A stretch of 64,000 bases of DNA from positions 62,001 to 126,000 of the forward strand of contig JALONG010000001.1 of NCBI GenBank assembly GCA_025455065.1. Reading direction: 5' to 3'. The notes below the pieces were generated by a model. The model worked only from the letters and a program-made list of their open reading frames with translations. It searched no databases and was not told the DNA's origin. Below, in pieces: positions 9,162 through 22,287 of the stretch. Position 1 is the first letter of the stretch, and every line of letters begins with the position of its first letter. Origin of the DNA: Candidatus Kapaibacterium sp. (lineage in GTDB: Bacteria; Bacteroidota; Ignavibacteria; Kapaibacteriales; UBA4661). Made by a program: the position numbers and the translations under genes.

Positions 9162-11627
9162 TTATTTCCATGCGCCGGAACGGAAATATCGGTCGAGCAA
9201 CGATAATTCATCCTCCAACATCGCCAAAAGCGACGGAGCTTCGTGCAACATACTATTTTTACCGACCTTTTCCAACTGCCCACATAAATCCATTGCCGTT
9301 TCCGCACCAAAATTTCCGACTGCCGATTTCAATTTGTGTGCAGCACTCTGCACCTGCACCGCGCTGGATTGTGCAACGGCTTCCTGAATAGCGGAAACAT
9401 CCGATTGATAGTTATTCAAAAAATACAAAATGAGCTTTTCGACAACATCTGCTTTTCCGTTGACCGCTTGTAATAACCGCGATATATCAGCAGGCTTTCG
9501 TTCAGTCCATCCCGCATCATTAGTCTCAGCAGTACTGTTGCCATCCTGTGCATGGGCATTGCCGGTCCCGATGCCGGATTTCGCTGATTGCTTGTTTTGC
9601 AACTGACTCCAAATGGTATCGTAGAGTTTGGTGAAATCTATTGGTTTGGTAACAACCGCATCCATTCCCGCTTTGCGGCAAAGTTCCGCGTCATGCTGGG
9701 TTGCATGTGCAGTTATGCCGATGACAGGCAGATGCTTCCCCGTTGTTTGCTCGTGTGTACGAATAGCGGCAGTTGCCGTTAAACCATCCATTATCGGCAT
9801 TTGGACATCCATGAGGACAATATCAAACCCAAAATTTGTGTCGCCCAATGTATCAAGCGCTTCTTGACCATTATTGACCAAAGTAACGTTCCATTCTTGC
9901 AACGATAACATTTCTTGAAACACGGCTTGATTTATTGGGCTGTCCTCAGCAAGCAAGATCCGAAGACGTTTTGGACGATCCTTTATGCCTTCCTGCCCGA
10001 TCGTTGTTGTTTGCGCATGATGTTCATTTGAGCTGACCGAGCCTTCCACAGGAAGCGGCAACCGCACCGAAAAGCCAAAGGTACTTCCTTCACCAACGTT
10101 GGATCGGCACCAAACCTGCCCGTTCATCAGTTCTGCTAATTGCCGTGCAATCGCTAATCCAAGCCCTGTTCCGCCATATTTGCGTGTGAACGACGGGTCA
10201 ATTTGACTGAAACTTTTGAACAGTTTCTCCATTTTTTCTTCCGCAATGCCAATGCCTGTGTCGGAAACTTCACATTCTATGAGTACATCGCCACCGGAAA
10301 TTTCCGGTACGCGCACATCCAAACGGATACTACCCTCGTTCGTAAATTTTACTGCATTAGCAAGGAAATTCGAGAGAATTTGCTTGTATCGTACACTGTC
10401 GCCAATAATTTGCTCCGGCAAACGCGCATCAATATTCGCCGAAAACGATAACCCTTTTTGCTCAATTTGGGGTCGAAATACCCCGATTATCTCATTGAAT
10501 ACATCAAGAATATTGATTTGAATATGTTCAAAATCTAACTTCTGCGCTTCAATTTTGGAAATATCTAAAATATCGTTAATGATATACAAAAGTGAATCTG
10601 CTGAAACCCGCATCATTCGGATATAGTCTTGCTGTTTTGTGTTCAAATTATCGCTGTTCGCCAGTAAACTCGACATCCCGATAATGCCGTTTAATGGTGT
10701 GCGCAATTCGTGGCTCATATTCGCCAAAAAGCTGCTTTTTGCTTGGTTCGCCGATTCCGCAACTTCTTTTGCACGGAGCAGCTCAACGGTTCTGTCGGCT
10801 ACGCGCCGCTCCAATTCTTCGTTTACCGTACGCATTGCCTCTTCTCCGGCTTTGCGGTCGGTGATATCAATACCCACCAATACCGCCTGCTCTCCACCGT
10901 GATATTTTCTGCCCATTATCAAATATGTTCGCGGTCCCTCTTTGGAAAGTATCGGTATTTCAAACTCCGCTTCTTCGTCATCAGTTTGAAAGAATTGTTC
11001 GACCATATTCCGAAAATCCAGATTCGCAAACGAACCATCGGCATTCGCGGAACCAACCTCACGCCCGATGTAATCTGCCGGAACAATACCTGTTAATCGC
11101 TCATAATACCCGTTCATACCCTTATACCGCAAATCCTTCCCAATCCATGAGATAACACCCGGAACAGCATCCAGAACCACTTCTAACTGCTCTTTCGTTT
11201 CTTGGATAATACGTTGCTGCTCAGCAAGTTGTCGGCTGGCAAGTATCGTGCTAGCAACTTTATCAACCACCGTATAAAGTTTGTCCTGCTTGACGGGCTT
11301 CAAAATATAGTGGTCAATTCCCAGATCGATGGCATTGAGCAAGAAGTCTGTTCTGTCGTAGGCAGTGGTCAGAATGATAGGAATAGCGGGGTTTTCAGCT
11401 TTGATAAGGCGTGACATTTCCATTCCGTCCATTATCGGCATCGCAACGTCGCTTACGATTATATCAGGTTGGTACTTGCGAAAGAAATCCAATCCTTCGC
11501 TCCCGTCTTGTGCCAAAAGAACTTTTTCAACGCGCTTTTCTAACAGCATTTTCGTCAGAAGCCGAATAGCTGCATCATCCTCAACGTATAAAACGGTAAT
11601 AGGTAATTTTGTGGTTACATCACTCAT
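9162..11627 (-). CDS. Hybrid histidine kinase: receiver-PAS-HisKA-HATPase-receiver-Hpt
   Basis: Domains in order over 821 residues: N-terminal receiver (Asp60 in VSDVAMP), PAS-like domain about 145-260 ending in VGIDITDRK, coiled coil, HisKA with His306 in [11 protein letters not shown], ATPase with G1 SDTGIGI and G2 GTGLGLA, second receiver (Asp607 in LMDVQMP), and Hpt domain with His764 in [10 protein letters not shown]. There is no membrane segment, so the kinase is cytoplasmic. The first receiver may gate the kinase; His306, Asp607 and His764 can form an internal relay toward the small regulator encoded next. It lies 252 bases downstream of the Hpt-receiver gene. Confidence 0.92.
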
Positions 11628-11879: not shown

Positions 11880-13115
11880 TTATTCGATGATATGTAACTT
11901 CCTCAATTGGTTCAGCACTTTTGCTTTGGTTATTGGTTTAATCAAATAAGCATCACACTGAAGGCGAAATGCTTTGAATACTTGATCCATACTATCTAGT
12001 GCGGTAGTCATCACAATTTTTGCCCTCTCACTACCAATAATACCGTGTTTAACTTCAATTTCTCTAATCCTCTCCAACGCTTGCGTTCCGTCCATAACAG
12101 GCATCATAATATCCAAACAAATCACATCGTAGCGGACACCTTCTTTGAGCGATTCTTCAAACGCCAAGAGCGCCTCGCGTCCGTCTGCCGCTAGATCACA
12201 CGTTCCAAAGGGCATGAGAATTTCGTGAATCACTGTTCTGCTCACAAAGTCATCCTCAGCAACCAGGATTGTGAGCGGCTTTGCTGCATGAATTCGGTGA
12301 ATGGGTGCGGAATTTTCCTGCTCTGTCGTCGTTGCCTTTTTCGATTGCAAAGTGTTTGATTGCCTGTTCGGGGTATCAATCTGTGCTTCTAACAGATCTT
12401 CAGGATTGATTGGGCGGAAGGAATCAAAAATGTGCAAGCCAAGTTCTTCTTCCCCGAAAGTGGTGGCAAACAATATTTTCATTACTGTTTCTTCGTCCGA
12501 ACCGATCTTGAGTTGGCTGAATTCTGGCATCGTTGCAATATGAATCCCCACCTCACGAATATCATCGTAAATCGGCAAGTTTTCGTAGGTCTGCGCCGAC
12601 ATTCCTTTAGGAGTAATAACTTTATCAATTTGGAACAATAAGAATTTTTCGTTCACCATCCCCCTGACCAGTTTTTTTTGGCGCTCGGAAAGAGTAAATG
12701 AGGTTTTGGCGGCATCCTTCGTTTTGGTTTTGCTTGCTTCGTGAAAAAGTCTGTCCAGCTCTCGTTGAAGCCGCTCCAAATCATCGCTGCGCTCCTCTGG
12801 AAGAAAGATATTGAAACGCATAGCGTCTACAGCGAGAAGCGATTGGTGGAGCAGATATGCCGTTGGCTTGGCAAAACCATTACGGATAAGGTCAAAGTTT
12901 GATTCAATTGCATGAACAAGCTGAGAGGAAGCCTCGCGGTGAATCATCCCAAACGAACTTTTAAGGTTGTGTGCCGTTCTGAAAGTACGGTGAATAATGT
13001 CGGTGCAATCTTTGGTCGTATCAAGAAATTCTTCGAGCAGAAGTAAATCCTGCTCTAAAAGTTCGACCAATTCGGCGATAACACTGAGATTTACGTCGTG
13101 TGCTTCGGTATTCAT
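11880..13115 (-). CDS. Hpt domain-receiver protein
   Basis: The 411 residues start with an Hpt domain (His49 in TAHNLKSSFGM) and end with a receiver (about 281-411, Asp335 in CLDIMMPVMDG). Between them, residues about 145-235 form an alpha/beta region (VNEKFLLFQIDKVITP, then VGIHIATMPEF) that I do not recognise with certainty; similar segments occur between Hpt and receiver domains in gliding and chemotaxis proteins. Its place between cheY and the hybrid kinase suggests a branching or phosphate-sink role. The receiver is related to the regulator at 8702-9094. No membrane segment is seen. Confidence 0.82.
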   Translation of the reverse strand: MNTEAHDVNLSVIAELVELLEQDLLLLEEFLDTTKDCTDIIHRTFRTAHNLKSSFGMIHREASSQLVHAIESNFDLIRNGFAKPTAYLLHQSLLAVDAMRFNIFLPEERSDDLERLQRELDRLFHEASKTKTKDAAKTSFTLSERQKKLVRGMVNEKFLLFQIDKVITPKGMSAQTYENLPIYDDIREVGIHIATMPEFSQLKIGSDEETVMKILFATTFGEEELGLHIFDSFRPINPEDLLEAQIDTPNRQSNTLQSKKATTTEQENSAPIHRIHAAKPLTILVAEDDFVSRTVIHEILMPFGTCDLAADGREALLAFEESLKEGVRYDVICLDIMMPVMDGTQALERIREIEVKHGIIGSERAKIVMTTALDSMDQVFKAFRLQCDAYLIKPITKAKVLNQLRKLHIIE

Positions 13116-13154: not shown

Positions 13155-13517
13155 TTAAAATCCAACCGCCTGCAAAGCCGTTTTCATCCTATCACCGGAG
13201 AACGGCTTGACCAAATAATGATTCGCGCCTAATTGTTTTAATTTTGTTTGCATTTCGGCGCTGTCCAGTGTAGAAAGCATCACAACAGGGGTTTTTCCGG
13301 CTGTAGCGTGCTTGCGAATACGCTTTAGGAGTTCCATGCCATTCATATTGGGCATTTCTATATCGGAAAAAATCACATCGAAGGTCTTTGCATCCAAGAT
13401 TTTGAGGGCTTCGATACCATCTTGGGCAATTTCTACCTTGAAACCGGACATGGAAAGAAACGTTCGTGTTGCAGAACGGTGAATTTCGGTATCATCAACG
13501 ACTAATGCGGTTTTCAT
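13155..13517 (-). CDS. cheY: CheY-like response regulator
   Basis: The start is the ATG complementary to 13515-13517, giving MKTALVVDDTE and 120 residues. It is a single receiver domain with acidic pocket Asp8-Asp9, phospho-acceptor Asp52 in FSDIEMPNMNG, a Ser at the switch position (MLSTLDS) and Lys in LVKPF. Position directly after cheB and the receiver-CheD gene suggests this is the CheY of the pathway, controlling a motility output. No flagellar or pilus genes are visible in the window, so the output is unknown. Confidence 0.82.
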   Translation of the reverse strand: MKTALVVDDTEIHRSATRTFLSMSGFKVEIAQDGIEALKILDAKTFDVIFSDIEMPNMNGMELLKRIRKHATAGKTPVVMLSTLDSAEMQTKLKQLGANHYLVKPFSGDRMKTALQAVGF

Positions 13518-13578: not shown

Positions 13579-14586
13579 TTACAATATATGCATCTTGCGC
13601 TCCGGCGAAGAAATATGCACTGCCTTTGACCCAACTTGGATAAAGACCGTTCTACTGAAAGCATCACCAACATCTTCGGCAAGGAGAGAAATACTCAGTG
13701 CTTGTAATAACGTTTTTACAGCAGTGATATTTTTCTCACCGATTTTGAAATAATTATTTGCATCGGCGCTTGTCTGTGCGCCTCCGGCAATCTTTGCAAC
13801 AAGTTGCGAAACCGGCTTACGGAAGCCGACTGCACGCATTTCGTTTATCAGCACAGGTATAGCAGTGTCGGCAAAATACCCCGGCAGAACCTTTGCCTTG
13901 TCGGGTGAGGTTGTCGAAGACGCTAAAGCAATATGCACCATACCTACAACATCAAACGTGGGACTGAATAAATTTACCGCTATACACGAACCGAGAGCAA
14001 AGGTTTTTATCATCTTGCCGTATTCGTTGGAAGCCGCATATTCACCCACACCGATAATGCTTTGTGGTATTCGCTCTTCGTAATTTGGAACTGACAATGA
14101 ACTTTTCTTTGGAATCTGCGGCAGTGGTAAACTTGGAACAACAGCAGGTATGGGAGGTTGAGCCTGCTGAGCAATAACAGCAACACGCGATGCTGCTTTG
14201 ATTTTAGCCACTAAACGACTTAGTGTTTCCTGAAACCCTTGCGGATTGAGCGCCGAAGGCTTCGGGATAAAGTCGGCTGCGCCTGCTTCCAAGGCTTGCA
14301 ACGTTATGGATTTGTCATTTTGCGTCCAAGAACTCAAAACAATGATGGGGAGAGGAGACCGCACCATTGCTTGCCGAATAAACTCCAAACCGTTCATTAT
14401 CGGCATATCCATATCCGTTACGACAACATTCGGCTTCAACATGAGCAGTTTTTCCAGCCCGTCTTGACCATTGACAGCCGTACCGACGATGTCTATGCCC
14501 GAATCAGGAACGGCAAGCGATTTGACCAGTAAATCTCGCACAAGCGAGGAATCATCTATCAAGAGAACACGTACTTTTTCACTCAT
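13579..14586 (-). CDS. cheD: Receiver-CheD fusion (phospho-regulated receptor deamidase)
   Basis: Chosen start MSEKVRVLLIDD mirrors the start of the adjacent CheB; an upstream ATG at 14604 is possible. Of 335 residues, 1-130 form a receiver (Asp58 in VTDMDMP, SSW switch, PKP loop) very like that of CheB. A Pro/Gln-rich linker (140-165) leads to a CheD domain: Cys201 in FALGSC, His218 in GMVHIAL, the IAGGAQ turn, and KIGEKN. CheD deamidates chemoreceptor glutamines with a Cys/His/Thr centre; both Cys and His are present. CheD is usually a single domain of about 160 residues, so an attached receiver is unusual and suggests control by CheA phosphorylation. Confidence 0.88.
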   Translation of the reverse strand: MSEKVRVLLIDDSSLVRDLLVKSLAVPDSGIDIVGTAVNGQDGLEKLLMLKPNVVVTDMDMPIMNGLEFIRQAMVRSPLPIIVLSSWTQNDKSITLQALEAGAADFIPKPSALNPQGFQETLSRLVAKIKAASRVAVIAQQAQPPIPAVVPSLPLPQIPKKSSLSVPNYEERIPQSIIGVGEYAASNEYGKMIKTFALGSCIAVNLFSPTFDVVGMVHIALASSTTSPDKAKVLPGYFADTAIPVLINEMRAVGFRKPVSQLVAKIAGGAQTSADANNYFKIGEKNITAVKTLLQALSISLLAEDVGDAFSRTVFIQVGSKAVHISSPERKMHIL

Positions 14587-14639
14587 TTCATTCAGTTTTA
14601 ACATTTTTGTACAGCGTTGAGAATGTTCCAAAGGCGCTT

Positions 14640-15737
14640 TTATGAACCTTTGAGCGCATTAAAGATATTTTCTGCCATAACATCCAAAGACACTACTTTT
14701 TTTACGGCTCCGGCTTCAAACGCCGCTTTCGGCATACCATAGACCACTGATGAAGCCTCATCTTGCGCCAATGTCATCGCACCGGCATCCAACATCGCCT
14801 TCAGCCCAAGTGCGCCGTCCGAACCCATTCCCGTAAGAATTACTCCAATAGCATTTCTGCCCACATTTTGCGCCACAGAGCGCATCATTACATCCACCGA
14901 AGGGCGATGACCATTCACTTTTTCTTCTTGCGACAGCGCGATTTCATACCGTCCGCCGGAACGATTGATTTTCATGTGCATATCACCCGGAGCTATCAAA
15001 ATTTTTCCGTTCATCACTCTATCGCCGTTTGCCGCCTCGACGACCTGCATTTCACATTCGTCATTCAAACGGTCGGCAAAGGTCTTGGTGAAGCCTGCTG
15101 GCATATGCTGCGTGATTACAATACCCGGCATGGTTGCAGGTAAATTCCTCAGCACCTTCCGCAGTGCCTCTGTGCCGCCTGTAGATGAACCAATAGCAAT
15201 AACTTTATCGGTTGATTCTGATAACGCTGCACTCTTGGCGATTAGCGGTGTACCTGTGCCGGCAGAAGGACTTACAGCCGACTTGCCCATTGCATTAAAC
15301 AGTTCTTCACGCTTGTTTTTCCAATGCGCTACATTTGCCGTTGAAGCAATTTTCACTTTTGTTCTCAGCTCAAACATCATTGATTGTAAGCCCTGTGCTA
15401 CGTTGGATGTCGGCTTGGCAACAAAATCTACTGCCCCTGCTTCCAAGGCTTGCATCGTGATTTCTTTTCCACGTTGTGTGAGTGATGAAACCATAACCAC
15501 CGGCAAAGGATACTGCGGCATCAAACGCCGCAAAAACTCAACGCCGTCCATACGAGGCATTTCCACGTCCAATGTCAACACATCGGGGCGCAGTTCCACA
15601 ATTTTATCCCTTGCTACAAAAGGGTCTTGCGCTGTGCCGACAACTTCAATATTCGGGTCAGCACCAAGCCCTTGCGCTAAAATATCGCGGACTAAGGCAG
15701 AATCATCAACAATGAGTACTCGAACTTTTTTGGTCAT
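14640..15737 (-). CDS. cheB: CheB, receptor methylesterase/deamidase
   Basis: The 365 residues are the standard CheB plan: receiver (Asp57 in TLDVEMPRMDG), linker, and C-terminal methylesterase. The catalytic triad is visible: Ser185 in IGSSTGG, His211 in TQHMPAGFT and Asp307 in TGMGSDGA. It removes methyl groups from receptor glutamates once phosphorylated by CheA. It follows cheR (76-base gap) and precedes the receiver-CheD gene (53 bases to the chosen start), so the three receptor-modifying enzymes are contiguous. Confidence 0.95.
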   Translation of the reverse strand: MTKKVRVLIVDDSALVRDILAQGLGADPNIEVVGTAQDPFVARDKIVELRPDVLTLDVEMPRMDGVEFLRRLMPQYPLPVVMVSSLTQRGKEITMQALEAGAVDFVAKPTSNVAQGLQSMMFELRTKVKIASTANVAHWKNKREELFNAMGKSAVSPSAGTGTPLIAKSAALSESTDKVIAIGSSTGGTEALRKVLRNLPATMPGIVITQHMPAGFTKTFADRLNDECEMQVVEAANGDRVMNGKILIAPGDMHMKINRSGGRYEIALSQEEKVNGHRPSVDVMMRSVAQNVGRNAIGVILTGMGSDGALGLKAMLDAGAMTLAQDEASSVVYGMPKAAFEAGAVKKVVSLDVMAENIFNALKGS

Positions 15738-15813: not shown

Positions 15814-16692
15814 TTACAAGGGCTTTCTGTACAGCGCCGGCATGATGTACTGAAACGCAGACTGGGCGCGGTCTATCGTTTCAGAATGTCCGATAAACAA
15901 GTATCCGCCCGGAACAAGATTATCATAAAAACGCCGAATGAGCGCATCACGAGTGGGTTTGTCGAAATAAATCATAACGTTACGGCAGAAAATCACGTGA
16001 AATTGCCGCTTGAAAGGAAAAGTAGGATTCATCAAATTTAATTTCCTGAATGTTACTTCCTTGTGCAATGCCGGTTTGACTTTCCATTCGTTATTTGCAA
16101 CACGTTGGAAATATTTTGTTTTGTATTCTTGCGGCAGAAGATTGATTCGTTCATCGGGATACACCCCTTCCATGCCGATTCCAAGCGCTTTTTCCGAAAT
16201 ATCAGTCGCCAAAACCCCCGCTTTCCAACGAGAATAATCCGCACCCCAAAATTCCATCATCAGCATTGCCAGCATATACGCTTCTTCTCCCGAAGAACAT
16301 CCCGCACACCAAAGCCTGAAGTCCATTTCATGGCGTTGTTTGAGATGTTCGCTTATTTCGGGCAAAATGTGTTTGACAAGATAGTCGAAATGCTCTTTTT
16401 CACGAAAGAAAAACGTATGATTTGTGGTAATATGATTCGCAAACTCAATGAGCGGCTCATTACTAGGGCTTTTAATGAGATATTCGTAATACTCATGGAA
16501 CGATTTCATGCCCATTTTGCGCAGTACCTTCTGCAGACGCACCGTTACCATCGTACGCTTTTCCGACGCAAGATGAATACCGAATCGGTCATAGACAAGT
16601 TGGCGCAAATTTTCAAACTCCTGCTCCGAAAGAGCGACAGCGACAATATCATCTACTTGGTTTGTTGTGGGAAATTGACCGAATTGTTGCAT
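15814..16692 (-). CDS. cheR: CheR, receptor glutamate methyltransferase
   Basis: The 292 residues hold the CheR N-terminal helical domain (LRQLVYDRFGIHLASEKR), the TTNHTFFFRE segment, and the SAM-binding domain (WCAGCSSGEEAY-LAM, LATDISEKAL, FCRNVMIYFD, LFIGHSE). It methylates receptor glutamates, opposing CheB. The neighbouring chemoreceptor (ends 16920) is the obvious substrate. An unusual 14-base tandem repeat separates the two genes. Confidence 0.95.
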   Translation of the reverse strand: MQQFGQFPTTNQVDDIVAVALSEQEFENLRQLVYDRFGIHLASEKRTMVTVRLQKVLRKMGMKSFHEYYEYLIKSPSNEPLIEFANHITTNHTFFFREKEHFDYLVKHILPEISEHLKQRHEMDFRLWCAGCSSGEEAYMLAMLMMEFWGADYSRWKAGVLATDISEKALGIGMEGVYPDERINLLPQEYKTKYFQRVANNEWKVKPALHKEVTFRKLNLMNPTFPFKRQFHVIFCRNVMIYFDKPTRDALIRRFYDNLVPGGYLFIGHSETIDRAQSAFQYIMPALYRKPL

Positions 16693-16823: not shown

Positions 16824-16920
16824 TTCATATTTCCTACTTCATATTTCCTACTTCATATTTCCTACTTCATGTTTCCTACTTCATATTTCCTACTTTATAC
16901 CTCCTACTTCATACCTCCCT
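16824..16920. repeat. 14-bp tandem repeat, seven units
   Basis: Seven imperfect copies of a 14-base unit (plus strand TTCATATTTCCTAC, two 7-base halves) run from 16824 to the last base of the chemoreceptor stop codon. The first three and the fifth units are identical; the last two drift. It fills nearly half of the 227-base gap between the receptor and cheR. Confidence 0.95.
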
Positions 16921-19028
16921 TAATACCGTCCAAACTCGGAATCATCTAATTTAATTGTTTCGCTGGCGGTCAGCATTTTGAGGTTTTTTGTTGGCGCATC
17001 TTCTAGGGTTTCGGGACGAGCAGAAAATGATGTGGATTCAGCTTGAACACTTGGTTTTCGGGTGCTTTCCGCAAAGCGTGAAGATTGTGCTTGTTGTGCA
17101 TACCTGTTCCGCGAATCCCGCACCTGAAAACGTGCTACTACGCTGCTGAGTTCCGTAGCTTGGGCGGAAAGTTCCGAAGCCGCAGCAGCACACTCTTCGG
17201 CGGCAGCGGTATTTTGCTGGGTAACGTTGTCAATTTGCGCCAAACCGATATTGATTTGCCCGATTCCTTGTGCTTGTTCATTGGACGAAGCAGCAATTTC
17301 ACCGACAATATCACGCACCTTGACCGACGTTGCCATAATCTGCGACAGAGCAGCAGCAGTGCGCTCTGCAATGCGACTACCGTTCTCCGCTTTTGCCACA
17401 GCACCTTCAATAAGCTGCGCTGTTTCTTTTGCTGCTTTTGCGCTGCGAGCCGCTAAATTCCTCACTTCTTCGGCAACAACGGCGAAACCTTTTCCGTGCC
17501 TTCCCGCACGAGCCGCTTCAACAGCCGCATTCAAGGCGAGAAGATTGGTTTGGAAAGCGATTTCGTCAATAACACGAATTATTTTCGAGATATTTTGACT
17601 TGACTCGTTAATTTCACGCATTGCGACACCCAAATCCGCCATCTCAGCATTTCCTCGCTCTGCTGCACTTTGCGAATCCGTTGCAAGCGTGTTTGCCTGC
17701 GTAGCATTTTCAGCATTGATGCGGGTTTGTGCGGCAATTTCCTGCATTGAACTGGAAATTTGCTCCAACGAAGCCGCTTGTTCGCTTGCACCATGTGAAA
17801 GGGAATTACTTGCGGCTGATACCTGCGTTGCACCGTTTGCCACTTGCTGAACAATTTCCACAACGTGCAACAAGAGTTCATTCATTGCCCTCAATGTCGA
17901 ATTCAAGTTCGATTTCAACATTGCGTGGTCGCCTCTGTAATCGCCCTGCATTTCGGGACGAAAATCACCGTCAGCCATGCTTTGCAACACCGTTACCGCC
18001 TCTTGAATCGGCGTTATCATCGCATCCAGCGTTTTATTCACACCAGAAATAATTCTGCGATATTCGCCTTTGAATTTCTCTGCATCGCCACGCACTTTCA
18101 AATCTCCACCGATAGCGGCTTTGGTCAGTGTTGTGGTTTCATCAGCTAAATCTGCAACTGTTTGAACGATTTTGCGTTTTGCATTTGCTAAAGCGCCCAT
18201 TTCGTCGTTGGTAGCAATGTCAATGTGAATCTTCTCAAAGTCCCCATTAACTAAATGTGCATTGACATTTTGCAGTTTTTGAACGGGCTTGATAACGACA
18301 TTGGCAATAAAAAACAATGCTAACACAATCAAACCTGAAGTCAGTGCAGAAATCCCGGCAATCACCAGCGATTTTTCATTTGCCGCACGTTGCATCGGGG
18401 ATAAATCCACCAAAACTTCAAATGCACCATGCACTTCGCCGACTTTCCAATTTTCCATTGTTGCGCCCGTAATGTCTTTTCCGTCGGCATTTCCCCAGAA
18501 CTCCTGTGATTGTGCAGGGTCGCCGTGGCAGCGCATACACTCTTGCGTGAGTTTCACGGGGCGGAAATAGCGCAATCTGTTGTTCGTTTCATCAATCTCG
18601 AAGTGTTCTTTCACGTCGCCAGATTCTAACAGGCGCAGCACTTTTTCTTCAAATTTATCGGGCTGATTGTCAGGATTACGCGGCTGAAATTTCGGTACTT
18701 TCAAGGTAAAACCAAGTTCCGAAGCCTTCTTTTTTGCGACTTCCATTGCCGAAAAAATCGGAACGGTGCGCAAAACCTGTTCAATAGTCATATTACTTGC
18801 TTTTGCATCTTGAAAAACACCAAAACGAATCTGGTCAGCGGTGTATTCACGTGCCGCTTCCGCCGCTAAAACCAGCGTTCTGGATTTATCCACCAGCCCG
18901 GCTGTTGCTGTGTCGCGGTACAGATTCGAGAAATACCAAAATGTGGCAACTCCAGAAATGAGGGAAATAATCATCGCAGGCAAGATAATTTTCCAACGCA
19001 CAGACAAACTCGACCAAAAAATTTTCAT
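16920..19028 (-). CDS. Methyl-accepting chemotaxis protein with Tll0287-like c-type heme sensor
   Basis: Start chosen at the ATG complementary to 19026-19028, directly before the first membrane helix; 702 residues. Order: membrane helix about 11-33, periplasmic sensor 34-215 of the Tll0287-like (DUF3365) type with heme-c motif Cys164-x-x-Cys167-His168 (ECMRCHGDP), membrane helix about 221-246, HAMP and HAMP-like segments (about 247-410), then the cytoplasmic signalling hairpin with tip [21 protein letters not shown]. It should couple CheA to a redox, gas or ligand signal sensed at heme. It sits between cheA (138 bases upstream) and cheR, so it is probably the dedicated receptor of this pathway. 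Confidence 0.92.
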
Positions 19029-19166
19029 AGTTGTTTCCGAAAAAAAATTTGAGAGGTAAGGACTTCCAATAACTTGTTGCACAAAGACCGAATTTGAAAA
19101 AAAATCTCTTGTTTGAAAGTACCAAATATTGATTTTTCAAGTATTTATTGGCGATACGCCTTGTCA

Positions 19167-21794
19167 CTAATCATGCAAAAGGTTGAATGCCAAGCTGCCC
19201 GACATCATCTGCAAGAGCATATCTACGTCAATAATCAAGCCTACTTCGCCGTTACTTTGAATCATACAACCCGTGATTCCTTCGACATTTCCGACGTAAT
19301 CCGAAAGATTTTTTACCACGATTTGTTGCTGCCCTATGATTTCATCTACAAACAAACACGCCTTGCGCTCCCGCGCTTCGACAATCACCAAAATCCCTTC
19401 GTGAAGCAAGGTTGTATCCGGTGTTCGGTCATAGAGTTCATGCAACCGTACAACCGAGAATAATTCGTCACGCACCCGCACAACTTCCTGACCGTCCATC
19501 GTAATAGTGATTGCCTGCTCTTGCGGTCGGAATGATTCTTTGATTGCCAGAATCGGCAGGGCATAAATTGATTGACCGACACGAATCATCATTGCGTCCA
19601 TAATCGCCAGCGTAAGCGGAATTCTCAGTGTGAAGCGCGTTCCTTTGCCATCCCGCGTATCTACGGTGATGCTACCTTGCAGTTTTTCGATATTGCGCTT
19701 CACAACGTCCATACCCACACCACGCCCCGAAATATCGGTAATTTTTTCCGCCGTTGAAAAACCCGGCTCGAAAATGAGCATATTCACTTCGCGGTCAGTC
19801 ATTTTGTCAGGCGCAACCTTCAAAATGCCCTTCGATGCTGCTTTTTCAAGGATTTTCTCACGATTGATGCCGCCCCCGTCATCTTCGATAATAATGAGGA
19901 TTTCGTTCCCTTCGTACCGCGCTTGTAATTTCACTGTTCCTGTTTCGCTTTTGCCAGCTTTCAAGCGGCGCTCACGGGATTCAACGCCGTGGTCAATAGC
20001 GTTGCGAATGATGTGCATAAGCGGATCGGAGACCTCTTCTATCACATTTTTATCCATTTCCGTTTCCGCGCCGGAAATTTCCAGATTGATTTTTTTGTCA
20101 AAGCGCATGGATAAATCCCGCACAAGCCGTTTCATCTTGTTAAACAAGCCGTCAAGCGGCATCATGCGGATTGACATTGTTACTTCCTGAAGTTCGCGGG
20201 TGATTTTGTTTAACATCGCAGCAGCTTTATTAAAACTTTCCAATTCAAGCGCTTGCACTTCAGGATTACTTGTAACCATAGATTCAATCGTGATAAGTTC
20301 ACCGACTAGGTCAAAAAGTTTGTCCAATTTTTCCATATCCACGCGAATATCACGGCGTTGCAACATACCGGCAACAGCTTCGGCTTTAGCGGCAGCTCCC
20401 ACTAGCTCTGTGGGTTGTGTCTGTTCTCCGTTACCGTGTGTTTGTTCATCCAAAGCGCTTTTCTCTGCTATGGAAGCTGATTCGTTGGTAGTTGAAGGCG
20501 TAATGCTCTGAACATCCTCCTGGTGGGGCGCTTCCCAGATCTGTTGCAAAAATTCATCATTCAATGCAGATTCAATAACAGGCGGCGCTAATGGTTGCTT
20601 CGTTTGCTGCGGAGAGGAAACAGGCACAGGGGCGGTCTTTGTACGCTGTTTTGGTATAGGCTGCAAGGCAAAATTTTGTTGAGCAGCAAGTTCGGCGACT
20701 GCACTTTTTATGATGTCAATGTTCGTCAGAAGCATGGAAATAAGCCCCGGATAGACTTCCAACGTTTTTGCGCGGACAGCATCCAAGATATTTTCTAAGT
20801 CTGTACTCATACCTTCAATATCTGCAAAACCCATAAACCCTGAGTTCCCTTTCAGGCTATGCACTGCGCCAAAAATCGTTCCCACGACGGTCATATCATT
20901 CGGGTTTTGCTCCAAACGCAAACACCCATCTTCAGCGACAGAAACCAATTCAAGGGCTTCGGTGAGGTAACGCTGCAAAATATCTGGCGCAATGACCGCA
21001 GGAGAAAATGCCGTATTTTGCTCGCTTGCCGTTAGCGAAGAAGAAAGAGAAAAAGGCTCTTGGGAAGCACGGTTAGGCATGTTTTCAAGAGTGGCAAGTT
21101 GTGAATCGGAAAAGAAGAAATCATCGGGAAAGGTTTGCTCCGAATTTTGGGATACTTCTGAGGTTTGTACGGTAGCTTGTGCATCAAAAACCTGCGCCAT
21201 CGAGGCTTCCAACTCTTCTTCGGACATATTGTCCACATCCAGATTTGCAAAAAAATCATCAGCAGGCTCTGCACCTGCCGGAAAGACGGGAGGGATTTGC
21301 GGAGGGGCAATAGTGCTGTTTATTGCCGACGGAGAAGGTGCATGAATACTTGGTTGCGGTGGTGCTATTGCTTGTTTGCCTTGCAAAGCAACGCCTGATT
21401 TTATACTGGTTATGCCCTCTTGCAACTTGGAAATAAGCGCCCTAACAATCTCCTCATTTCCGGTGTCTTTCATCACCGAAGCGACGGTGTTCAACAGTGT
21501 TCGCAGCACATCGAAACTTTGGTAAATCAAATCAATTACTGGCTCGGAAACGGCTTCAGGCTTGTTGCGCAGAAGGTCTAAGAGCGTTTCAGCTTCATGC
21601 GTAACGGTATTCAACGTGTTAAAATTCAAAAACCCCGACAGCCCCTTAATAGTGTGAAAAACCCGAAAGATAGCATTAATACTCTCTTTCGAGCCTGTGT
21701 CAAGAATATCCTGAATTTTTCCTTCCTGCTCATCAAGTGAATCCAAGGATTCAATGACAAATGCACGAACAATTTCCAGCGTCTCACGATCCAT
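19167..21794 (-). CDS. cheA: CheA, chemotaxis histidine kinase with two Hpt domains
   Basis: Start is the ATG complementary to 21792-21794; a GTG lies two codons earlier. The 875 residues contain Hpt1 (His47 in FHTIKGLSGF), an acidic Pro-rich linker, Hpt2 (His312 in VHSLKGNSGF), another linker with no obvious P2 domain, the dimerisation helices (about 480-545), the ATPase (NAIDHGVES, DDGGGI, GRGVGMD) and a C-terminal CheW-like domain. Two Hpt sites allow phosphate transfer to several receivers, fitting the five receiver proteins encoded downstream. No separate cheW is present in the window. Confidence 0.95.
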   Translation of the reverse strand: MDRETLEIVRAFVIESLDSLDEQEGKIQDILDTGSKESINAIFRVFHTIKGLSGFLNFNTLNTVTHEAETLLDLLRNKPEAVSEPVIDLIYQSFDVLRTLLNTVASVMKDTGNEEIVRALISKLQEGITSIKSGVALQGKQAIAPPQPSIHAPSPSAINSTIAPPQIPPVFPAGAEPADDFFANLDVDNMSEEELEASMAQVFDAQATVQTSEVSQNSEQTFPDDFFFSDSQLATLENMPNRASQEPFSLSSSLTASEQNTAFSPAVIAPDILQRYLTEALELVSVAEDGCLRLEQNPNDMTVVGTIFGAVHSLKGNSGFMGFADIEGMSTDLENILDAVRAKTLEVYPGLISMLLTNIDIIKSAVAELAAQQNFALQPIPKQRTKTAPVPVSSPQQTKQPLAPPVIESALNDEFLQQIWEAPHQEDVQSITPSTTNESASIAEKSALDEQTHGNGEQTQPTELVGAAAKAEAVAGMLQRRDIRVDMEKLDKLFDLVGELITIESMVTSNPEVQALELESFNKAAAMLNKITRELQEVTMSIRMMPLDGLFNKMKRLVRDLSMRFDKKINLEISGAETEMDKNVIEEVSDPLMHIIRNAIDHGVESRERRLKAGKSETGTVKLQARYEGNEILIIIEDDGGGINREKILEKAASKGILKVAPDKMTDREVNMLIFEPGFSTAEKITDISGRGVGMDVVKRNIEKLQGSITVDTRDGKGTRFTLRIPLTLAIMDAMMIRVGQSIYALPILAIKESFRPQEQAITITMDGQEVVRVRDELFSVVRLHELYDRTPDTTLLHEGILVIVEARERKACLFVDEIIGQQQIVVKNLSDYVGNVEGITGCMIQSNGEVGLIIDVDMLLQMMSGSLAFNLLHD

Positions 21795-22287
21795 AATCAC
21801 AATACGAAATAATTTGAAGCAAAAGAATTTGGTAAAGGCGCATCAATTCTACCGATGAAGGAGCAATATCGGTTTTGTGCAGCGAAAATGCGGGTAACAT
21901 TGTATTCACTCACAACAAAGCCGGAACGACCAATGGCAACAATGAAATGTGCTGTATTTGGGCAAAAATTGACTCCGTAATCTACACAAAAGTCTTGATT
22001 TCTTGTAATTTTCTTACAAGTGACGCACACAATTATTCCGAGTTGTTCGTTTTGTACTACAAAAACAATCTCGAACTATATGTTGAAACGATAGAATAGC
22101 GCTCAAAACCGACATATTGATTGCTGCAATCTACAAAAAATTATGATTTCACCACGAAAAGTGTATATTTAATTCTTGACAAAAAAGTTACGTGAAACAC
22201 TGAGTCTTGGGAAAAATATCGGAAAAAATATAGGCATGAACATCATTCATTAGCAGTTTTTTCGTAGTTTGGAGGAAATGACCAACC
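21795..22287. other. Divergent intergenic region between cheA and subtilase
   Basis: This 493-base gap separates divergent genes and should hold both promoters. On the plus strand I see a promoter-like pair at 22141-22171 and a GGAGG Shine-Dalgarno at 22271-22275. I see no convincing gene, RNA or repeat in the rest; small open frames inside have no recognisable protein character. Confidence 0.6.
22141..22171 (+). promoter_or_regulatory. Candidate promoter for subtilase gene
   Basis: TTA at 22141-22143 lies 20 bases before TATATTTA at 22164-22171, the same pattern as at 27552, 30466 and 46087. The start codon lies 117 bases downstream of it. Confidence 0.3.

Follow-up and report, generated by a model that had tools for sequence, protein, structure and literature searches.

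A CheB-type receiver fused to CheD in Kapabacteria: a possible phosphorylation-switched receptor deamidase

A chemotaxis cluster of Candidatus Kapaibacterium sp. encodes a protein in which a CheB-type receiver and a CheD domain are joined in one chain (REC-CheD). The window, meaning the whole stretch of 64,000 nucleotides that was analyzed, carries the fusion gene in the same cluster as cheA and cheB; the fusion is conserved in relatives with intact phospho-acceptor and catalytic Cys and His residues, and no CheC was detected in the genome. The reading favored here, held tentatively and at just short of an even chance, is that the fusion is a phosphorylation-switched CheD, in which CheA would pass phosphate to Asp58 and glutamines of the MCP would be deamidated without CheC and beside CheB.

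The features of the protein and of its cluster are given in Table 1. On the minus strand, the order of the cluster is cheA, MCP, cheR, cheB, REC-cheD, CheY-like receiver, Hpt-receiver protein and hybrid histidine kinase. The sensor domain of the MCP contains a CxxCH motif at residue 182, as in c-type haem sites.

Table 1. Features of the REC-CheD gene and its che cluster (positions in the window)
Feature	Position	Strand	Length	Basis
REC-CheD fusion gene	13579..14586	(-)	335 aa	Open frame and Pfam, conserved in relatives
CheB-type receiver, residues 1-112	14251..14586	(-)		Pfam, sites, tree
Phospho-acceptor Asp58	14413-14415	(-)		Site alignment
Disordered linker, residues 141-169	14080..14166	(-)		pLDDT <50, AlphaFold model
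CheD domain, residues 176-326	13609..14061	(-)		Pfam 221-326; phmmer to 2f9z_C from residue 176
Catalytic Cys201	13984-13986	(-)		Site alignment
Catalytic His218	13933-13935	(-)		Site alignment
cheA: two Hpt motifs (His49, His314), ATPase and CheW domains	19167..21800	(-)		Pfam, motifs
MCP with Tll0287-like sensor domain	16920..19082	(-)		Pfam
cheR	15814..16692	(-)		Pfam
cheB (receiver and methylesterase), directly upstream of REC-cheD	14640..15737	(-)		Pfam
CheY-like single receiver, directly downstream of REC-cheD	13155..13517	(-)		Pfam (scanned from 13514); start codon from sequence
Hpt-receiver protein, same cluster	11880..13115	(-)		Pfam
Hybrid histidine kinase (two receivers, HisKA, ATPase, Hpt)	9162..11627	(-)		Pfam

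The frame of the fusion begins with ATG at 14586 and its stop ends at 13579 on the minus strand; a TTG at 14631 is also open in frame upstream, and the alignment of relatives begins at the ATG. Pfam places Response_reg at residues 7-112 (E 2.5e-20) and CheD at residues 221-326 (E 1.7e-24), the PF03975 score being 86.5 bits against a curated cut-off of 25. No match to the methylesterase domain PF01339 was found by Pfam in the fusion. When the predicted model of the fusion was searched with Foldseek, Thermotoga maritima CheD (2f9z_C) ranked first (E 6.5e-17) and the CheB receiver of T. maritima (3t8y_A) ranked second (E 2.9e-11). The union of receiver and CheD in one protein, proposed earlier from the sequence alone, is borne out by both searches. 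The AlphaFold model contains two confident domains with residues 141-169 disordered and has a pTM of 0.50; thus, no fixed packing of the receiver against CheD is predicted. Two NCBIfam models also matched below their cut-offs: the CheB model at residues 3-157 (131.3 bits, cut-off 293) and the T. maritima-type CheD model (102.8 bits, cut-off 240). The latter is named "deamidase/glutamate methylesterase", and from this name demethylation by the fusion is conceivable.

The genome of the window (5.6 Mb in 131 contigs, 99.5% complete) contains one CheD. In the sample of the phylum, CheD was present in 33 of 395 genomes (34 matches); six matches, from the order of the window, shared their frame with a receiver, whereas the frames of the other 28 did not exceed 229 aa. 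Within this order (Kapabacteria), 25 of 123 genomes carried CheD, and the 26 matches comprised 23 REC-CheD fusions, one fusion cut by a contig end and two standalone proteins. The cut CheD (G439, 193 aa) begins within the last helix of the receiver at the contig end, and the standalone CheDs (G429, G456) are divergent. All eight CheD matches of the window's family were fused to a receiver. Named genomes were also scanned with the CheD domain. The best 80 of 137 loci comprised 19 that were fused, one that was cut (L047, the same protein as G439) and 60 without receiver. Every one of the 19 fused proteins was identical to a fusion from the order of the window; the loci are labelled mostly Kapaibacterium, Kapabacteria or Ignavibacteria, with L067, L079 and L095 labelled Bacteroidetes or Chloroherpeton.

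CheC (PF04509) had no match in the genome of the window, the same search being positive in four of 14 control genomes, and none in ten genomes of the window's family. The earlier remark that no CheC is visible in the window thus holds across the genome and the family. In the order as a whole, CheC matches occurred in six of 123 genomes, of which G420, G439 and G160 also carry CheD; where CheC matches and CheD occur in one genome, in three genomes of the sister family, the CheC match is weak. CheX was likewise without a match in the ten family genomes and had matches in six of 123 genomes of the order, two of them above the cut-off. The FliM/FliN C-terminal domain was found in one of the ten family genomes (G471, without CheD); it had no match in the genome of the window or in any of the eight CheD-bearing genomes of the family. 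Since no FliM/FliN match accompanies a full che cluster, the output is probably not a flagellar switch.

The functional residues of both domains were compared in 23 distinct fusions. In the receiver, D12, D58, S85 and K109 were each present in 23 of 23, and D11 was D in 22 and E in one. The catalytic Cys and His of CheD were also kept in all 23. The residue numbers given for Asp58, Cys201 and His218 in the sequence-only reading proved right, and these residues do not vary among 20 aligned fusions. According to PMC7022378, the third residue of the catalytic triad of T. maritima CheD is Thr21. Thr occupies this position in the window and in eight of the 23 fusions (all eight of the window's family), and Ile occupies it in 15 (sister family). 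The position of Met101 (B. subtilis numbering) is Thr in 22 of 23 fusions and Ile in one; that of Phe102 has no aromatic residue in the fusions, the alignment there being unsure owing to a gap. In PMC3513319, Met101 and Phe102 are reported to be conserved only in the presence of CheC and are tied to CheC binding, F102E having bound roughly a tenth of CheC; deamidation by B. subtilis CheD was near-normal in F102A/E and little in M101A/E. The change at the Met101 position fits with loss of CheC, yet the 60 nearest standalone CheDs (among the best 80 of 137 loci) are also mostly without Met (Val 43, Ile 15, Met 2). Given the little activity of M101A/E, Thr at this position puts efficient deamidation by the fusion in doubt and warns that deamidase activity should not be assumed.

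In the large receiver tree, whose bootstrap had yet to settle, the receivers of the fusions clustered as one clade (99/97) and fell within a broader group (100/95) that holds 68 CheB rows. In a reduced receiver tree, five CheBs of the same order stood beside the fusions (95/86), and the full tree does not single out a donor CheB. The resemblance to the receiver of the adjacent CheB, noted earlier, reaches residue 137, beyond the receiver proper. The CheD domains of the fusions also formed one clade (100/98), and a wider group (93/92) unites it with 31 sampled nearest standalones. Desulfuromonadales contribute many of the standalone CheDs nearest to the fusions among the best 80 of 137 loci, and in most of these cheB is the gene directly upstream. 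The trees and gene order suggest that the fusion probably arose from a cheB-cheD pair whose cheB copy lost the methylesterase part, so that the receiver was joined to CheD.

For a phosphorylation-switched CheD, we infer the following course of phosphotransfer, gating, deamidation and feedback. CheA of the same cluster would most likely hand phosphate to Asp58 in the organism of the window, and the phosphorylated receiver may then free or position the CheD domain on the MCP helices by means of the flexible linker. The CheD domain would deamidate encoded glutamines of the methylation pairs of the MCP, and the fusion could act as a second feedback arm alongside CheB, without need of CheC. This course is supported by the conservation of the fusion and of its acceptor and catalytic residues, by the CheB-type receiver, by the nearest standalone CheDs that mostly follow a cheB, and by the lack of CheC and CheX matches in the ten family genomes. 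Further support comes from the Hpt, ATPase and CheW domains of the cluster CheA, from the Gln encoded at positions 435, 441, 447 and 603 in candidate methylation/deamidation pairs of the cluster MCP (motif scan), and from a separate planctomycete fusion of CheD and receiver, for which cheA is the gene directly upstream in 10 of the 26 regions. Weighing against it are the Thr at the Met101 position, the replacement of the triad Thr by Ile in 15 of 23 fusions, the CheA-like proteins without kinase in two relatives (L036 and L037), the lack of fixed packing in the model, and the three sister-family genomes with CheD and a weak CheC match.

Gene neighborhoods of the relatives bear on the source of the phosphate. 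Five of the seven named loci of the family (L033, L034, L035, L038, L039) share the order of the window, with cheB placed after cheR and before the fusion, and L034, L035 and L038 also have, like the window, a CheA with a kinase-region match and an MCP in the cluster. The other two, L036 and L037, are sisters in the CheD tree; in them REC-cheD directly follows cheR, and no cheB or MCP match was found within about 7.4 kb upstream or 6.4-8 kb downstream; the cheB matches of these genomes (G469, G468) are on other contigs. The CheA-like proteins of the two loci (L036:4981-6423, 481 aa; L037:5052-6416, 455 aa) keep the first Hpt histidine and have lost the second. No match to the ATPase or CheW domain was found in them, a dimerization region was found in that of L037, and a hybrid kinase lies just after REC-cheD in both loci. 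In the sister family (f5), none of the 12 named loci had a cheA, cheR or cheB match in the flanks searched, which ranged from 134 to 8000 bases. In L062, L064 (a kinase of 1439 aa), L067 and L072, the fusion comes after hybrid-kinase matches, and in L095 after a transporter gene. The phosphodonor may therefore vary among lineages.

CheB-type receivers are normally phosphorylated by CheA. That a hybrid histidine kinase and an Hpt relay, not CheA, mainly feed the receiver, coupling a two-component relay to receptor modification, is considered somewhat unlikely. The CheA-like proteins of L036 and L037, with a hybrid kinase next to the fusion, agree with such a donor, as do the four loci in which the fusion stands behind hybrid-kinase matches; the cluster of the window also has a hybrid histidine kinase, a possible alternative phosphodonor, and an Hpt-receiver protein. 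However, CheA with a kinase region is found together with an MCP in the clusters of the window and of L034, L035 and L038, and the receiver is of the CheB type. Phosphorylation of REC-CheD by CheA is plausible, and not universal.

A second alternative concerns the CheD domain, which might act chiefly by binding receptors and tuning CheA and do little enzymatic work, while the receiver takes the place of CheC and CheY-P in regulating that binding. The argument in PMC3513319 that binding by B. subtilis CheD matters more than deamidation would favor this, as would the substitutions at the Met101 (22 of 23 Thr) and triad Thr positions; it is nevertheless unlikely, as the catalytic Cys and His are kept in every fusion and the triad Thr in every fusion of the window's family. 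It is quite improbable that the receiver serves passively, for targeting or as a phosphate sink, and has no control over CheD. The unfixed domain packing of the model would suit such a role, but the receiver and CheD are both strongly conserved (receiver NG86 omega 0.06-0.18 in the four pairs, of five, that computed, with dS saturated or failing in many pairs), and the two domains have been joined in two opposite orders. The chance of an assembly or frameshift artefact joining two genes is practically nil, and the sequencing frameshift that the sequence-only reading had named as its own refutation is excluded, since 23 of the 26 CheD matches of the order are single open frames with the receiver and represent distinct fusions in separate genomes of two families.

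The fusion had also been proposed to be an analogue of CheB, phosphorylated directly by CheA. The part of this proposal that stands is the CheB-type receiver with its acceptor intact throughout, together with the missing CheC, the replaced Met101 and Phe102, and the place of the fusion after cheR without cheB in L036 and L037. The part that does not extend to all relatives is the donor, considering the kinase-less CheA of the same two loci and the sister-family loci without cheA, cheR or cheB matches, and doubt about deamidation comes from the Thr at the Met101 position. Moreover, as cheB still adjoins the fusion in the window, the fusion there adds to CheB and does not replace it.

Proteins with the two domains in the opposite order (CheD-REC) were found in the planctomycete phylum, where CheD occurs in at least 96 of 343 genomes. 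At least 26 such proteins from 25 genomes were recognized among 40 listed frames of at least 292 aa (loci L185-L224), two of the 26 being confirmed by Pfam; nine further listed frames look like read-through. The acceptor residues are intact in all 26. Besides the upstream cheA, the neighbors include a downstream cheR in L197 and in L201; none of the 26 had a cheB match within about 1.2 kb on either side. A single CheD clade for REC-CheD and CheD-REC was rejected (p 0.0007; 47 rows, reduced set), whereas a single receiver clade was borderline and not rejected at 0.05 (p 0.059; 48 rows, reduced set, leaving out the six long-branched rows F_L038, F_L039, B_L004, B_L137, B_L133 and B_L118). A single origin of both receiver fusions is thus rejected on the CheD tree. 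A broader reading, possible though somewhat short of probable, is that receiver-gated CheD is a CheC-independent form of control that may have arisen at least twice, in Kapabacteria and in planctomycetes, giving a phosphorylation-driven deamidase arm that could outlast local loss of CheB, MCP and CheA kinase by taking phosphate from hybrid kinases. The window's family would then use this arm without a detectable flagellar switch.

The fusion can be compared with several known systems. It shares the receiver, the start of the linker and the place in the operon with CheB (receiver 3t8y, whole protein 1a2o), and has CheD where CheB has the methylesterase. With standalone CheD of the B. subtilis/T. 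maritima type (2f9z), it shares the fold and the catalytic Cys and His; standalone CheD is regulated by CheC and CheY-P, whereas the fusion has a receiver, no detected CheC and changed Met101 and Phe102 positions. The planctomycete proteins resemble it in combining CheD and a CheB-like receiver with intact acceptor in one chain, and differ in domain order and in the rejected common CheD clade. A paper on the CheC-CheD structure reportedly appeared in 2006. What controls CheD in organisms without CheC is not known to have been settled. In searches of the open-access literature, no report of a receiver-CheD fusion was found among the papers listed, and the planctomycete proteins had no published name there. 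The covalent joining of receiver and CheD in two opposite orders makes phosphorylation switching of CheD directly testable. If phosphorylation does switch CheD, deamidation would be a signal-driven step like demethylation by CheB and not only a one-time maturation of receptors.

Other arrangements of CheD were met in these searches. The Bdellovibrio plasmid hit H1 was rejected as REC-CheD because CheD precedes the receiver. This protein (L031:7977-9029, Bdellovibrio sp. HAGR004 plasmid), annotated as hypothetical, also differs from the fusion of the window in that, by eye, an apparent short start of the CheB catalytic domain follows the receiver. The Comamonadaceae plasmid hit H2 was rejected as a fusion and consists of two separate genes. 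In the planctomycete phylum, CheR and CheD share one frame in L210 (Pfam), and L212, L215 and L218 look alike by eye. In L214:1143-2246, the region after CheD matches CheX below the threshold (20.5 bits, threshold 27) and is perhaps a phosphatase domain of the CheC/CheX type joined to CheD. The phylum of the Spirochaetota genome G488 has CheD in 238 of 373 genomes, and no frame among the matches listed exceeds 244 aa. In that of the Desulfuromonadales genome G485, CheD occurs in 195 of 345 genomes; no REC-CheD was seen in the 12 longest frames among the matches listed, eight of which show, by eye, apparent open-frame read-through upstream of CheD. Fusions of lower frequency may lie outside the matches listed for these two phyla. 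The other four of the 12 frames (L173, L174, L176, L180) are CheD-HDOD proteins by Pfam.
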